A stretch of 34,820 nucleotides of DNA from Gemmatimonadota bacterium (GCA_947461225.1 CANHJV010000022.1:1-34820), one strand, 5' to 3'. Counted from the stretch's first letter, positions 29,343 to 34,152 are shown. Notes: a model not told the origin generated them from the sequence alone. Translations and numbers: made by a program.

Positions 29343-30179
29343 ATGCGTGTTCGCTCTGCTCTCCGCTTCGTCGGCCTGCTTCTCGCGGCCCCGCTCACGC
29401 TGGCGTGTACGGAACGCGTGCCGACGCTCCACGCCGGTAATGCCGAGCGTGGTCTGGCACTCATGACCGCGTTTCGTGATTCCTTGCCGGCGAACAGCGG
29501 CAACGCGCTTCGCTGTGTCAGTTGTCACCTCGACAACGGTACGCGGCCTACGGCTATGTCATGGCTGGGAACCGCCGCGCGGTATCCGCGCTATCGCTCG
29601 CGTCCCGGCTACGAAGAGACCTTGGCACGTCGGGTGAATGAGTGCATCGCCCGGAGTCTTGCGGGTCGCATGCTGCCGGAGGACGGTCAGGAGATGCGCG
29701 ATATCCTGGCGTACTTCGAGACGATGCGAGCGTCGCCGCGACCGGCGCCGGTCGACTCCGTGAAGCAGGTCGGCGTGGTGGCGCTCGGCGAAGTCGGCTA
29801 TGCGGGGCAATGTGCCCGCTGCCACGGCGCGAACGGGGCAGGCATAGCGGCCATGGCGGCGCCGGCGGTGTGGGGCAGTGACAGCTACGCGATCGGAGCC
29901 GGCATGGCGCGACAGTTCACGTTGGCCACCTTCGTGCGCCACAACATGCCGTTCGACCACGCTGACACGCTGACAGCGCAGGAGGCGGCAGACATCGCCG
30001 CGTACGTCCTTACGCAGCCGCGCCAAGATCATCCTGGGAAGGAGCGTGATTGGCCCAAGGGTGATCCCCCGGTTGACGTGGCCTATGCGACGTCGGCTGC
30101 GGCCGCCGCGGGCAAACCGCTGCCGGCCGAACGCCCGCTGCTGCCTCGTCGTGTTTCTCCGGATTCGAGTAATCGATAA
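29343..30179 (+). CDS. Dihaem cytochrome c, thiosulfate dehydrogenase-like
   Basis: Probably a TsdA-type periplasmic thiosulfate dehydrogenase, which joins two thiosulfates to tetrathionate. The 278-residue product has a signal peptide ending LLLAAPLTLAC (possible lipoprotein, Cys22) and two haem sites, CVSCH at 58-62 and CARCH at 157-161. TsdA hallmarks are present: YPRYRSRPGYEETLARRVNEC with Cys101 at the place of the unusual Cys haem ligand, RSLAGRMLPEDGQEMRDILAY, VWGSDSYAIGAGM, and FVRHNMP with Met202 as likely second ligand. The C-terminal ~45 residues are a Pro/Ala tail. GGAG lies only 1 nt before ATG and a TATGTT box sits at 29332-29337, so the mRNA may be leaderless. Activity is inferred. 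Confidence 0.82.
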   Translation: MRVRSALRFVGLLLAAPLTLACTERVPTLHAGNAERGLALMTAFRDSLPANSGNALRCVSCHLDNGTRPTAMSWLGTAARYPRYRSRPGYEETLARRVNECIARSLAGRMLPEDGQEMRDILAYFETMRASPRPAPVDSVKQVGVVALGEVGYAGQCARCHGANGAGIAAMAAPAVWGSDSYAIGAGMARQFTLATFVRHNMPFDHADTLTAQEAADIAAYVLTQPRQDHPGKERDWPKGDPPVDVAYATSAAAAAGKPLPAERPLLPRRVSPDSSNR

Positions 30180-30218
30180 CGTCGGGAACGGAACGATGGT
30201 CCGCGTAGTCTGCGGCGG

Positions 30219-31667
30219 TCATCGCCGCTTGGTCCAGATCAGAATCGTTCCGCATCCTGTCGATGAGGACAGGTCAAACTCCGGTGGAATACCCACTGGC
30301 GATGCGTAGACTTCGATAGCCAGTATCGATTCAGGCGGCACCGCAGCGTCGAGATCCGCGAACGTTCGAGATTTCCCTGGGGTGGGGACCACAGCCTCGA
30401 CGACGAAAGGCGATCCGTCGACGAAATAGTTTGGAATGCAGCGACCGGCCTTGAATCCGCGAATGAACGGCATACTTCGACCCCTGATAGTACCGCCAAG
30501 CGTCACTCCTCTGGCTTGAGAGAGTAACGAGCCAAGCTCGATCCCTCCCAGTTGTTCGATGACATCCGGACCGAGAATGACGCCGAATCCGGCGCGTCGG
30601 CGCGCATCAAACCCTTCTGGTAGCGATGAGCCGAATTGACCGACAATGCGTTTCGTCGTCAGCGCGACGGCAGCTCGCGGCATCGCGACAGAGATAATCG
30701 TGTCACGCACAACGTCGAGCAGCTGCATGTGTGCCTCGTATCCCACTTTGAGAACGGTTATTGATTGCGTCCCCGCGGTGCTCAGGAGCGTAGCGCGCCC
30801 CATGGCATCGGACCGCGTTTTCTCGTGCGCGCCACTCGACGAGACGTCGGCATTCTCGATGGGCACCCCCGTGTTCGCCATCACGGAGAAGGTCAGCCGA
30901 TGCTGCCCTTGCCGCACGTGAATGGGTAGGTGACGAAACGCAAGATCAGAAATGCTGATCTCGACCGGAGACGACGCCCCCGCCGAAGTGTAGGCCTCAA
31001 CTCGAATTGGTTGTCCGATCGGTACATCACACGCAACAAACGTGGCGCCGGTCTGAAGCGCGATTGACGTCGTGAGCGGAACTCGCACCAGCTTCGACTG
31101 AACGATCTCCATCTCCGTCCATGAAAGGTGAACGGATCCGGAATCCAATCTCGTGTCATTGCCCAGCGAAACCCGGCCGATCAGAAGTCCCGCTCCGTTT
31201 CTCAGAGTTGATCCACACATCGCGACGTTCAGCGATCGGACGCTCGGTATTGAGAGAGTAGTCATAACTCCGCCCGAGCTCGGTACGTCGATGAGCACTG
31301 GCGGGAGCGCGACGTCGAGCGAATCGAGCAACGGATGCAGCACTACCATCGCGTGACGGCCAGCTGGAACTCGGTCGAAGGAGAAACGCCCTGTGCTGTC
31401 TGCATCGGCCCACCGGTTCAGCCCCGGTATCGTGACAACTGCGGATGCGAGCGGACGCCCCGTTCCTGAGAGCGAGTCGATCACTAAACCGGAAATACGG
31501 CCTTGTGCGTGCAGCAGGGAGCTTGTCGCAATCGTAACGGTCGAGAGCGTGACGAGCGATAACGCGACGATCGCTGTGCCCGCGACACGTGTAACCTCCT
31601 GTGCCAACGTCAGTAAGCGCAAACGGACAAGCATGAAGGGAGTGGCTGTACTGGCAGCGCTTGTCAA
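30219..31667 (-). CDS. Exported regulatory-domain/TonB-plug protein without a barrel
   Basis: A 482-residue envelope protein from a TTG at 31667; an ATG at 31634 would drop 11 residues. A hydrophobic export segment (about residues 28-50) is followed by a carboxypeptidase-regulatory-like domain (GRISGLVIDSLSGTGRPLASAVVTI, DSTGRFSFDRVPAGRH, about residues 56-108), a middle beta-rich region with a second such repeat (ENADVSSSGAHEKT), and a plug-like C-terminal domain (VIEQLGGIELGSLLSQARGV, NYFVDGSPFVVE, ESILAIEVYAS). It then stops, so no barrel exists. Cysteines in GRCIPNYF and STGCGTILIW could pair. It starts 5 nt after the DsbA-like gene and is surely co-transcribed. It lies convergent to the cytochrome. 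Function unknown. Confidence 0.75.
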   Translation of the reverse strand: MTSAASTATPFMLVRLRLLTLAQEVTRVAGTAIVALSLVTLSTVTIATSSLLHAQGRISGLVIDSLSGTGRPLASAVVTIPGLNRWADADSTGRFSFDRVPAGRHAMVVLHPLLDSLDVALPPVLIDVPSSGGVMTTLSIPSVRSLNVAMCGSTLRNGAGLLIGRVSLGNDTRLDSGSVHLSWTEMEIVQSKLVRVPLTTSIALQTGATFVACDVPIGQPIRVEAYTSAGASSPVEISISDLAFRHLPIHVRQGQHRLTFSVMANTGVPIENADVSSSGAHEKTRSDAMGRATLLSTAGTQSITVLKVGYEAHMQLLDVVRDTIISVAMPRAAVALTTKRIVGQFGSSLPEGFDARRRAGFGVILGPDVIEQLGGIELGSLLSQARGVTLGGTIRGRSMPFIRGFKAGRCIPNYFVDGSPFVVEAVVPTPGKSRTFADLDAAVPPESILAIEVYASPVGIPPEFDLSSSTGCGTILIWTKRR

Positions 31668-31671
31668 CGCA

Positions 31672-32361
31672 TCACCGATCTTCTCTCAAAGCTTCGCGCT
31701 GCTTCTCGTCCAAATACTTGAGCAATTGAGTTGTTGGGGGCGCCCCCTCGATTCGAACTCCCTCAATGAAGATCGTTGGTGTACCTCCAATCTTAAGGGC
31801 ATCCGCCGCAAGGCTATCGGCGCCGAGTTTAGCGGTCAAGTCAATTGTGGACATACAAGACTCGAACTGAGTCGAATCTTTGATACCCGCAAGTTTTGCG
31901 CTTGCCCACCAAGGCTCAAGTCCAAATGTCGCCTGTCGACGCAAAAGCGTAGAGTTCATTTTCTCGAACGCTCCTTGTCTCTCAGCGCATACGCTCGCTT
32001 TCGCTGCTAAAACTGCAAATCGATGACGACTGCTCGGAAGGTGTCGATAAATGATTCTAAATTTCGCCCCTTCAGCTCGTAGAGAATCGAGAGTTCCGAA
32101 CAGGCGCGCGCAGTAGACACACTCGTAATCAGAGAAGATGAGAAGAGTCGCCGACGCGGATGAATCTCGGATTTCGCTTCCACCCGTCAAAAACCGGTCC
32201 CAGCTCGGTTCGAATCGTACTTGGCCCGCGGCGCGCGTTTGAGGCGCGCTGAAGCGATAGACCTGCAACGCGACGGTAATGAGAACGCAAACAGTTAGTA
32301 TCCATGTTGCGGCAGCGTTCGCGCTGGCCGTCGGTCGTGTTGAGTTCGGATGCTTTTCCAT
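31672..32361 (-). CDS. Membrane-anchored DsbA-like thiol oxidoreductase
   Basis: A 229-residue protein with one N-terminal membrane helix (about residues 19-36, TWILTVCVLITVALQVY) and a periplasmic DsbA-like thioredoxin domain. The redox motif is CVYC at 81-84 in FSDYECVYCARLF, the cis-proline loop is GGTPT at 192-196, and two more cysteines (125, 169) occur in the helical insert, as in other thioredoxin_4 proteins. It would make or reshuffle disulfides in exported proteins. GC is low for the window: I counted 26/60 for 32041-32100 and 32/60 for 31981-32040, against 39/60 for 21001-21060. It lies between a secreted six-cysteine peptide and a plug protein, both plausible clients. Confidence 0.82.
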   Translation of the reverse strand: MEKHPNSTRPTASANAAATWILTVCVLITVALQVYRFSAPQTRAAGQVRFEPSWDRFLTGGSEIRDSSASATLLIFSDYECVYCARLFGTLDSLRAEGAKFRIIYRHLPSSRHRFAVLAAKASVCAERQGAFEKMNSTLLRRQATFGLEPWWASAKLAGIKDSTQFESCMSTIDLTAKLGADSLAADALKIGGTPTIFIEGVRIEGAPPTTQLLKYLDEKQREALREDR

Positions 32362-32456
32362 AGGCCACGAATGATCAGTAAAGGTTCTCTCGGACGCTTG
32401 CGAATTATGTCAATAGAACATCGGCAACTTCGCAGTCGGACGGCTAGAGCACGACG

Positions 32457-32882
32457 TCACCGGCATCCCTCGCGCGCAATGATCGAACAGGTCGCAAATG
32501 CATCATTGACCGGTATGGCCGCCGGAGTTGAAGACGAGGTGCGCCGCCCACGTGACGGACTGGCCGACGGCCACGGGGCGCGGCGCTTCCTGTATCCACA
32601 AGATCTTCGCGATAGCATCGAGAGGTGCGCCGCACTTTGGCGAATTCGGCTCTCTCGTTTCGCTCCTTCGCGGCCTACGAGATCGGCAGTCGCTGTGGCC
32701 CGCGCTCGTAGACGAGACAATGCAGCAAGAGGCGCGACAATTTCGACGGTACGGAAACACGCTTCGTTTGTTAAGCGCGGATCGACGAGAACCAGCAATC
32801 GGCCGCTCAAAACAACGCTTGAACGAGGCACAAACCGCAGTGCGCGTTTAAGGGGCGTTCTCGGTTGTTCTGCCGCCGGCAC
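32457..32882 (-). CDS. Doubtful small ORF between peptide and DsbA-like gene
   Basis: Starts at GTG 32882 with GGAG 7 nt upstream, a good ribosome site, and runs 141 codons. The first half (SSVVLSGRLLVLVDPRLTN, then VEIVAPLAALSRL) reads like a small globular protein, but the second half is Arg/Ser-rich, as expected of a shifted frame. Another frame on the same strand (32503-32760) reads more naturally there (CGAPLDAIAKILWIQEAPRP). A frameshifted gene, a real short protein or no gene at all are all possible. No family recognised. The 572-bp gap 32362-32933 holds nothing else I can support. Confidence 0.3.
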   Translation of the reverse strand: MPAAEQPRTPLKRALRFVPRSSVVLSGRLLVLVDPRLTNEACFRTVEIVAPLAALSRLRARATATADLVGREGAKRESRIRQSAAHLSMLSRRSCGYRKRRAPWPSASPSRGRRTSSSTPAAIPVNDAFATCSIIAREGCR

Positions 32883-32933
32883 GTCCCAACTCCGATGCGG
32901 CGCGCGGAGTTGAGCCGTGTTCAGCGTGCCGGG

Positions 32934-33164
32934 TCAACTGGGGAAGCAAACTGCGATAAAATTCGGATACGGACAGGTGAAAGACGAATCGAGGCATTCG
33001 CCGCCGTACTCGCAGTTTTCCAGAACCCAGTACTCGCACTGGTTTCGATCGTTGAAGCACTGATCGGACGATCGTGATTGCTCGTGCGCCTGACCGGTGA
33101 GATCAGAAACACTTCCAATGAGACAAAACGCCGCCATAAGGAGGTTCCTGCGATGATTGTCCAT
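32934..33164 (-). CDS. Small secreted six-cysteine peptide
   Basis: A 76-residue exported peptide of unknown family. The N-terminus MDNHRRNLLMAAFCLIGSVS is a signal peptide with likely cleavage at GQA/HE (after residue 26), leaving about 50 residues. The mature part has six cysteines (36, 43, 51, 57, 64, 73; spacing 6-7-5-6-8) and several Tyr/Phe/Asn, suggesting a compact disulfide-linked fold. The ATG at 33164 is supported by GGAG 6 nt before it. An open frame extends 24 codons upstream but would cross the predicted start site. It is the first gene after a CRP-type promoter and lies upstream of a DsbA-like oxidoreductase, which could form its disulfides. Bacteriocin-like, adhesin or signalling roles are guesses. 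Confidence 0.7.
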   Translation of the reverse strand: MDNHRRNLLMAAFCLIGSVSDLTGQAHEQSRSSDQCFNDRNQCEYWVLENCEYGGECLDSSFTCPYPNFIAVCFPS

Positions 33165-33219
33165 TTCGTTCTCCGACTTAGGAATGCGGTAACTAAAAAG
33201 GAGGCCTTTCAGCCCCAGT

Positions 33220-33225
33220 ATTGTA
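33220..33225 (-). promoter_or_regulatory. -10 box (TACAAT) for the peptide operon
   Basis: Minus-strand TACAAT at 33225-33220 matches TATAAT in five of six positions. It predicts a start site near 33213, giving a 48-nt leader before the peptide ATG. No good -35 is present; instead the CRP-type palindrome occupies that region. Confidence 0.5.
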
Positions 33226-33245
33226 CCTTCGGTCACCTGAATATT

Positions 33246-33263
33246 CTGTGATTTGCATCACAG
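33246..33263. promoter_or_regulatory. CRP/FNR-family operator, perfect palindrome
   Basis: CTGTGAT-TTGC-ATCACAG is a perfect inverted repeat containing TGTGA-N6-TCACA, the exact consensus of CRP-type regulators. Its centre (33254.5) is 41.5 bp upstream of the start site predicted from the TACAAT box, the class II activator distance. It lies in the 358-bp region between the peptide gene and the divergent DsrE-like gene; the remainder of that region shows no gene. Confidence 0.65.
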
Positions 33264-33476
33264 TGTAAGCTTGTCGGCGGCAAGTTGGCGACCAACGCGA
33301 TCGCAAAGTGTGTTGGACCTGCGTCGCAACCGTGAGCGGCGAGGGTTTCCAGTCGAAGTCTGTGTACCACGTGTTTCGCGCCGCCAAAAGCTTGCACGAC
33401 AACGCGTTAGGCAAGCAACGCTTGAGCGCCTGGCGGCGCGTGTGCCCAAGGGGCCTTAAAAAAGGAGAGCCCAACG

Positions 33477-33522: not shown

Positions 33523-34152
33523 ATGTCCTCCGAATCAACGCGTCGTCGATTTCTCGCCAGCTTGTCGGCGTTGGGCGTTGCCGTGGGGCTGATCTCGCCC
33601 CTGCAAGCTGAAGCGACAGCGGTAAATGATGTAAATGCGCCAGCTGCTGGCGACGATCCTTGGCTGTCTCGGCTCAACGGAAAGCATCGCGTCATCTTTC
33701 ATTCACATCTCGCGAGCGACGGCATCGCCCTCAGGTGGGCGCAGACGTTCCTGGATACGCAGAAGAGCGCGTACGGCCTCACCGATGCCGACAGTAGCGT
33801 CGTGGTCGGGTTGAACGGCCGTGCGATCGGCCTGCTGTTCAACGATGCGATCTGGGGGAAGTACCCGATCGGCGAGACGCTGCAGATGCCGGGCTCACGG
33901 AACGCCAACGCCGCGCTGGTGGCTCAGCTCGTCTCGCGTGGCGTGATCATTCTGGCGTGCAATAATTCCATCCGTGCGGCGGGACAGCGATTCCTCCCCG
34001 AGGCCCAGCGGGGCGACGCGGCGTTGCGCACGGCCTTCTCCGACGAGGCCCGGGCGAATCTCCTGCCCGGCGTCGACGTGGTGCCGGCGATGATCGTCAC
34101 GCTCCAGCAGGCGCAGGACCGCGGCTGCCGATACATCTACGGCGGCGGCTGA
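33523..34152 (+). CDS. Tat-exported DsrE-like protein
   Basis: A 209-residue exported protein. The N-terminus STRRRFLASLSALGVAVGLISP is a twin-arginine signal. The rest has the DsrE/DsrF-like fold pattern: HRVIFHSHLASDGIALRWAQ, SSVVVGLNGRAIGLLFND, GVIILACNNSIRAAG with Cys146, and LPGVDVVPAMIVTLQQAQDRGCRYIYGGG with Cys202. DsrE relatives handle sulfur or bind small ligands; the periplasmic Tat versions have no settled role. Tat export suggests folding with a cofactor before export. It lies 0.36 kb from the six-cysteine peptide, divergently, and near the TsdA-like cytochrome. Convergent with dcd. Confidence 0.75.
   Translation: MSSESTRRRFLASLSALGVAVGLISPLQAEATAVNDVNAPAAGDDPWLSRLNGKHRVIFHSHLASDGIALRWAQTFLDTQKSAYGLTDADSSVVVGLNGRAIGLLFNDAIWGKYPIGETLQMPGSRNANAALVAQLVSRGVIILACNNSIRAAGQRFLPEAQRGDAALRTAFSDEARANLLPGVDVVPAMIVTLQQAQDRGCRYIYGGG

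Follow-up and report, generated by a model that had tools for sequence, protein, structure and literature searches.

A probable oxidative-folding cassette for a secreted cysteine-rich mini-protein in Gemmatimonadota

The NVEALA peptides of Bacteroidales are small, exported and cysteine-containing, and occur in genomes with many PF17170 propellers. Few studies have dealt with Gemmatimonadota, a phylum that abounds in soils. The sublancin operon sunA-sunT-bdbA-sunS-bdbB of the Bacillus subtilis prophage SPbeta encodes a disulfide-bonded secreted peptide together with its own thiol-disulfide oxidoreductase (PMC4336743), and EntV of Enterococcus faecalis is a secreted peptide whose activity requires DsbA (PMC6606811), although entV and dsbA are core genes that lie far apart and the E. 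faecalis DsbA is regarded as an enzyme of general function. Here we describe a locus at positions 30219-33264, on the minus strand, of a 34,820-nucleotide stretch of DNA (the window) from a Gemmatimonadota bacterium (GCA_947461225.1, CANHJV010000022.1:1-34820), in which genes for a cysteine-rich peptide, a DsbA-like protein and a protein with TTR-like and plug-like domains follow one another in this order. The likeness to sublancin lies in a peptide encoded with its own oxidoreductase; sublancin, however, has an ABC exporter, a glycosyltransferase and an immunity gene, whereas the cassette peptide is acidic and of the Sec type, and the third gene encodes a propeller or a plug protein. We propose that the locus is probably one copy of an oxidative-folding cassette for secreted mini-proteins that is spread across Gemmatimonadota and has interchangeable partners. 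A first-pass annotation of the window had stated that it knew of no described system with such content, and our literature search, with most subscription journals beyond its reach, found no counterpart of the peptide families, the propeller/plug slot or the phylum-wide spread. Dedicated oxidoreductases beside disulfide peptides were already known from bacteriocin operons, while the peptide families, the partner slot and the distribution appear to be new within the literature searched, and there is a fair chance that the function will make the cassette a kind of its own. The three genes are as follows.

32934..33164, minus strand: secreted acidic six-cysteine peptide precursor, 76 aa (open reading frame, Shine-Dalgarno sequence, Sec signal peptide, six cysteines; type and position as in 46 other cassettes)
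31672..32361, minus strand: membrane-anchored DsbA-like thiol oxidase, predicted (Pfam Thioredoxin_4, invariant columns, AlphaFold2 (AF2) model, Foldseek)
30219..31634, minus strand: exported TTR-like and plug-like protein without a barrel, the third gene (two CarboxypepD_reg domains, family alignment, AF2 model; alternative start TTG 31667)

The peptide gene, read from an ATG at 33164 to a stop at 32934, is preceded at six nucleotides by the Shine-Dalgarno sequence GGAG (33174-33171) and encodes a Sec-type signal that ends ..TGQA, before HE, and a mature part whose six cysteines are spaced 6-7-5-6-8; the net charge is -7. These features bear out the 76-residue, signal-peptide-bearing six-cysteine peptide of the first-pass annotation. 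A direct search in 100 relatives returned chance matches only, no homologue was found in Pfam, NCBIfam or PDB, so that the six-cysteine pattern was dropped as a known fold, and PF11402 (E 0.034) falls under its family cut-off. Cassettes were found by searching with the DsbA-like protein instead of the peptide. A peptide was counted if it had a signal-like hydrophobic start, at least 5 cysteines, at most 125 aa and no Arg-rich or second transmembrane stretch, with its gene on the DsbA strand and no more than 700 bp away; canonical DsbA genes of the same genus, 44 in number, served as controls. Such a peptide lies beside 47 of the 67 DsbA genes of the subfamily and beside 0/44 canonical ones (p 1e-15), with 35/46 in the first set and 12/21 in the held-out set (p 7e-8), the held-out cassettes with peptides coming from several families of the class. 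An earlier run that asked only for at least 4 cysteines gave 30/43 against 1/45; the lone positive control, L273, is itself a cassette and was reassigned to the cassettes before the 47/67 against 0/44 count, which slightly favours the contrast. The pairing of peptide and DsbA is statistically solid, and the idea that the genes form one cassette in which the oxidase folds the peptide gains from it, the catalysis being predicted. The co-occurrence across Gemmatimonadota that had been suggested as a check is therefore found for DsbA and peptides as a class, though not for homologues of the window peptide, and an unconserved gene order, which would have spoken against a cassette, is not what the phylum shows. 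If a cassette is defined by a subfamily DsbA, a same-strand secreted Cys-rich peptide and a propeller or plug gene, the window carries all three. The subfamily profile matches (E <= 1e-36) in 199 of 298 evenly sampled Gemmatimonadota genomes, an upper bound on cassette carriage, as the weakest matches include canonical DsbAs. At 80 related DsbA loci, mostly from other bacteria and archaea, no peptides of this type were found, apart from a true cassette at L135 (Gemmatimonadaceae) and from L112, L127 and L161 of Myxococcota, where an unrelated 8-cysteine protein (..CLVHxDCHASERCLV..) is encoded directly upstream of a DsbA-like gene of 340-350 aa. Three more detector hits, at L133, L149 and L168, look like out-of-frame noise.

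The DsbA-like protein (32361-31672, 229 aa) has an N-terminal transmembrane helix, matches Thioredoxin_4 (2.3e-17) and carries the active site C81-V-Y-C84, as the first reading of the sequence had noticed. Alignment of 38 subfamily members shows that the CxxC cysteines are invariant, as are Cys125 and Cys169, along with a cis-Pro at Thr194-Pro195; members in other genomes share these features and the membrane anchor at 22-33% identity to the window protein. The AF2 model (pLDDT 92.5) is a thioredoxin fold with an inserted helical domain and a cis-proline, and Foldseek matched it to C. diphtheriae DsbA/TsdA, S. pomeroyi 3gyk, ScsC, Wolbachia alpha-DsbA1 and BdbD, the hits including entry 4pwp at E 6.5e-12. 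Wolbachia alpha-DsbA1, B. subtilis BdbD, the C. diphtheriae protein and ScsC have the fold, the CxxC and the cis-Pro in common with the window protein, but are only 16-25% identical to it in structural alignments, and it differs from them in its own N-terminal transmembrane anchor and in its Cys-rich-peptide gene context. The protein thus appears to belong to the DsbA-like thioredoxin-fold oxidases, and oxidase activity is predicted from sequence and model. A housekeeping DsbA would have no peptide neighbour and be nearly universal, whereas this subfamily is peptide-linked and, within the genus, patchy and multicopy. Moreover, the G+C content at third codon positions (GC3) of the cassette dsbA genes is 0.62 against 0.77 in their neighbours (p 9e-13), a low value that is expected of accessory, mobile genes. 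In the mechanism that we propose, the peptide would be exported through Sec and would receive its three disulfides from the anchored DsbA-like protein on the outer side of the inner membrane. VKOR, for which the genome has a gene at another site, or a comparable quinone-linked donor would then return the enzyme to its oxidised state. In its mature form, the acidic mini-protein may work with, or pass to, an exported third protein, usually a six-bladed beta-propeller, whose slot the TTR/plug protein would take here.

The cassette peptides are diverse and fall into many families, and none of 38 matched a Pfam family. All 37 examined are net acidic (median -5) and 32/37 have an even number of cysteines, at widely variable spacing and with no conserved metal motif. 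Synonymous sites are mostly saturated between peptide pairs; the one clearly unsaturated pair has a dN of 0.21 and a dS of 0.56. A metal-handling set, in which a ScsC-like oxidoreductase would act with a Cys-rich metal-binding peptide, could draw on the acidity and cysteine content of these peptides, on the ScsC copper-tolerance proteins among the Foldseek and profile matches, and on the HlyD-type and long RND-like genes near four cassettes (L091, L099, L224 and L226; the RND call is from length and clustering only). We regard it as the least probable of the alternatives because the cysteine counts are mostly even, with variable spacing and no conserved motif, no Pfam metal-binding family matched, and the efflux genes are rare neighbours, some 1-3 kb off, the usual partner being a beta-propeller. 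Most membrane-active bacteriocins are not acidic. The acidity of all 37 peptides therefore argues against a membrane-lytic bacteriocin, and no recurrent immunity gene, ABC exporter or dedicated exporter was found among the cassette neighbours, nor any match by PADLOC. A bacteriocin-type system, with the partner serving immunity or receptor binding, is for these reasons unlikely, despite the extreme diversity of the peptides, the multicopy, patchy distribution and low GC3 of the cassette, and the precedent of dedicated oxidoreductases in bacteriocin operons such as that of sublancin (PMC4336743). A tentative proposal, yet quite a conceivable one, is that the folding cassette makes mini-proteins that are acidic, rich in disulfides and quick to diversify throughout the phylum, that each of them has a membrane oxidase of its own and a swappable partner (propeller, TTR-plug or a protein of about 700 residues), and that they are used in cell-cell interaction or signalling. 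The cassette brings to light dozens of disulfide-rich secreted mini-proteins that had no annotation, each with a candidate folding enzyme, and may supply new disulfide-rich scaffolds with matched foldases.

The third gene exposes a slot in which unrelated folds are exchanged. A six-bladed propeller of the PF17170 type, which in most cases bears a signal peptide or lipobox, is encoded next to DsbA in 35/67 cassettes and 0/44 controls, and its gene often overlaps dsbA by 4 nt. With their small exported cysteine peptides and propellers the cassettes are reminiscent of the NVEALA and PF17170 content of Bacteroidales genomes; the two are set apart by profile, as NVEALA (PF14055) matched neither the 38 peptides nor the window genome, while both profiles matched in a Bacteroides control genome. 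A plug-family gene is adjacent (within 600 bp) in 10/67 cassettes and 0/44 controls (p 0.005), and in 4/21 of the held-out set (p 0.009); three controls have a plug gene further off, at 0.8-1.35 kb. The plug-bearing cassettes are these.

Window; L088; L213; L215; L217; L235; L318; L328; L331; L334

The order peptide, DsbA, plug recurs at L217, L088, L318 and L328, and a propeller and a plug gene never occur together in a cassette when the same strand is scanned to 600 bp (p 2.6e-4). At L214 (866-2725), DsbA and propeller are naturally fused in a single open reading frame of 619 aa (DsbA residues 7-222, propeller 228-614). This fusion, the tight 4-nt overlaps with the partner gene and the four invariant cysteines of the plug protein might mean that the oxidase serves the plug or propeller, the peptide being a passenger or regulator with no tie to it. 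We find this improbable, since the peptide is the commonest companion of DsbA and is found with either partner. A few cassettes have a small predicted DNA-binding-like protein upstream. A further kind of third partner, in place of propeller or plug, is a protein of about 700 aa, encoded at L090 (5185-7287), L092 (5833-7881; no Pfam match for this copy) and L093 (2062-4254), where the peptides are closely related.

The plug gene of the window extends from 30219 to an ATG at 31634 or a TTG at 31667; only with the TTG start is it 5 nt from dsbA, as first annotated, the gap from the ATG being 37 nt. The protein has two CarboxypepD_reg domains (2e-14), and its C-terminal part, uncalled by Pfam Plug, aligns with a family whose members partly match that profile (relatives L086 and L088). 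It is like the N-terminal CarboxypepD_reg and Plug modules of TonB-dependent receptors and SusC in its succession of TTR-like domains and a plug-like domain, but the chain ends there, at ..GCGxIxIWT, with no outer-membrane beta-barrel, and the family alignment shows four invariant cysteines in addition to the plug motif. The AF2 model (pLDDT 82, pTM 0.51) is good within domains, and a whole-chain Foldseek search returned only generic multi-domain pilin/Ig-like chains (TM-score <0.2). The barrel-less TTR and plug-like family (window and L053-L081) is large, with about 4-15 matches per genome (genus, E <= 1e-8), often in tandem arrays. The lack of a barrel, as first read, stands, but the cysteines of the protein, then taken for a pair of its own, are family-wide and invariant in copies without a cassette; they give no sign of peptide handling and were dropped as specific evidence of a peptide-exchange site.

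A cytochrome gene (29343-30179) and a TAT-signal gene (33523-34152) flank the cassette and are direct neighbours in more than 20 other genomes of the genus that have both. A plug gene lies between them only in the window and in the sister species G024, which has an 84%-identical orthologue at this site; the peptide and DsbA genes are there in the window only. The plug gene is a mosaic: between window 30200-31500 and L082 4900-6235 of G024 it is 97-98% identical over 30200-31130 and about 70% identical upstream, and the flanking cytochrome gene is about 83% identical between the two genomes. This mosaic and the intact junction in relatives mark the cytochrome/TAT-signal site as one where DNA has been inserted and recombination is recent. 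Together with the peptide and DsbA genes, the plug gene's 5' end may have moved or been lost. Possibly, though rather doubtfully, the plug protein is a bystander, the peptide-DsbA pair having landed upstream of a resident gene of this large, mobile paralogous family; the state of G024 and of the other genus members, which have none of the three genes, the many copies per genome, the family-wide cysteines and the mosaic of a near-identical 3' two thirds and a divergent 5' third are as this would have it. Against it stand the adjacency of plug genes to cassettes and not to controls, also in the held-out set, the mutual exclusion with the propeller, the same gene order at four other divergent loci, and the position of the divergent 5' third, towards the cassette, as co-transfer would leave it. 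The first suggestion, of a plug protein that would receive or display the peptide, draws weak support from the adjacency and from its filling of the propeller slot, and is set back by G024, where the plug is alone, by the multicopy family and by the cysteines, though the data would allow a contact between the two proteins. The cassette makes the role of this plug family, as of the PF17170 propellers, testable.

Several points weigh against the locus being a folding cassette with interchangeable partners. Twenty of the 67 cassettes have no peptide as defined by the detector; loci of the first set supplied the seeds of the propeller and plug profiles, so that circularity is avoided in the held-out counts only; and one of the held-out loci, L326, appears to be nearly identical to L135. 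In the sister species the plug gene stands alone, so that for this closest homologous locus the peptide is absent, as is DsbA; absence of the peptide had been named beforehand as speaking against a cassette. The window peptide has no sequence homologue, its coding status being judged from its Shine-Dalgarno sequence, signal peptide, cysteines and position. Finally, the gap between the peptide gene and dsbA, typically <130 nt in most cassettes, is 572 nt here, and a single transcript of the two may at most be predicted. The gap and the region upstream of the peptide gene contain the following features.

32362..32933, minus strand: 572-nt peptide-DsbA gap with no credible gene (open reading frame, homologue and codon-signal checks)
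33220..33225, minus strand: candidate -10 element TACAAT (from sequence)
33247..33262, minus strand: CRP-type palindrome TGTGATGCAAATCACA, centre at -41.5 (spacing computed from the -10)

A 141-aa open reading frame in the gap (32882-32457), listed as doubtful in the first-pass annotation, lacks both homologues and a codon signal and was rejected as a real or decayed gene. The order given there, from a CRP-type promoter through peptide and DsbA-like to plug genes, is borne out by open reading frames, Pfam matches and sequence. The palindrome is perfect and is the sole match with at most 1 mismatch across the 34.8-kb window; 266 kb of control DNA held no perfect match. A centre at -41.5 is typical of a class II activator site. 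A two-hexamer sigma-70 scan found no -35 with the candidate TACAAT element, as expected of an activator-dependent promoter. None of the other cassettes shares a site of the TGTGATGCAAATCACA type, which was therefore rejected as a cassette-wide feature.

Of the genes flanking the cassette, that at 33523-34152 encodes a TAT-signal protein that weakly resembles the C-terminus of a TetH-type thiosulfate dehydrogenase (NF052225, 43 bits, far under the cut-off). A SoxA/TsdA-like dihaem cytochrome gene adjoins the TAT-signal gene, and the pair is conserved in the genus.

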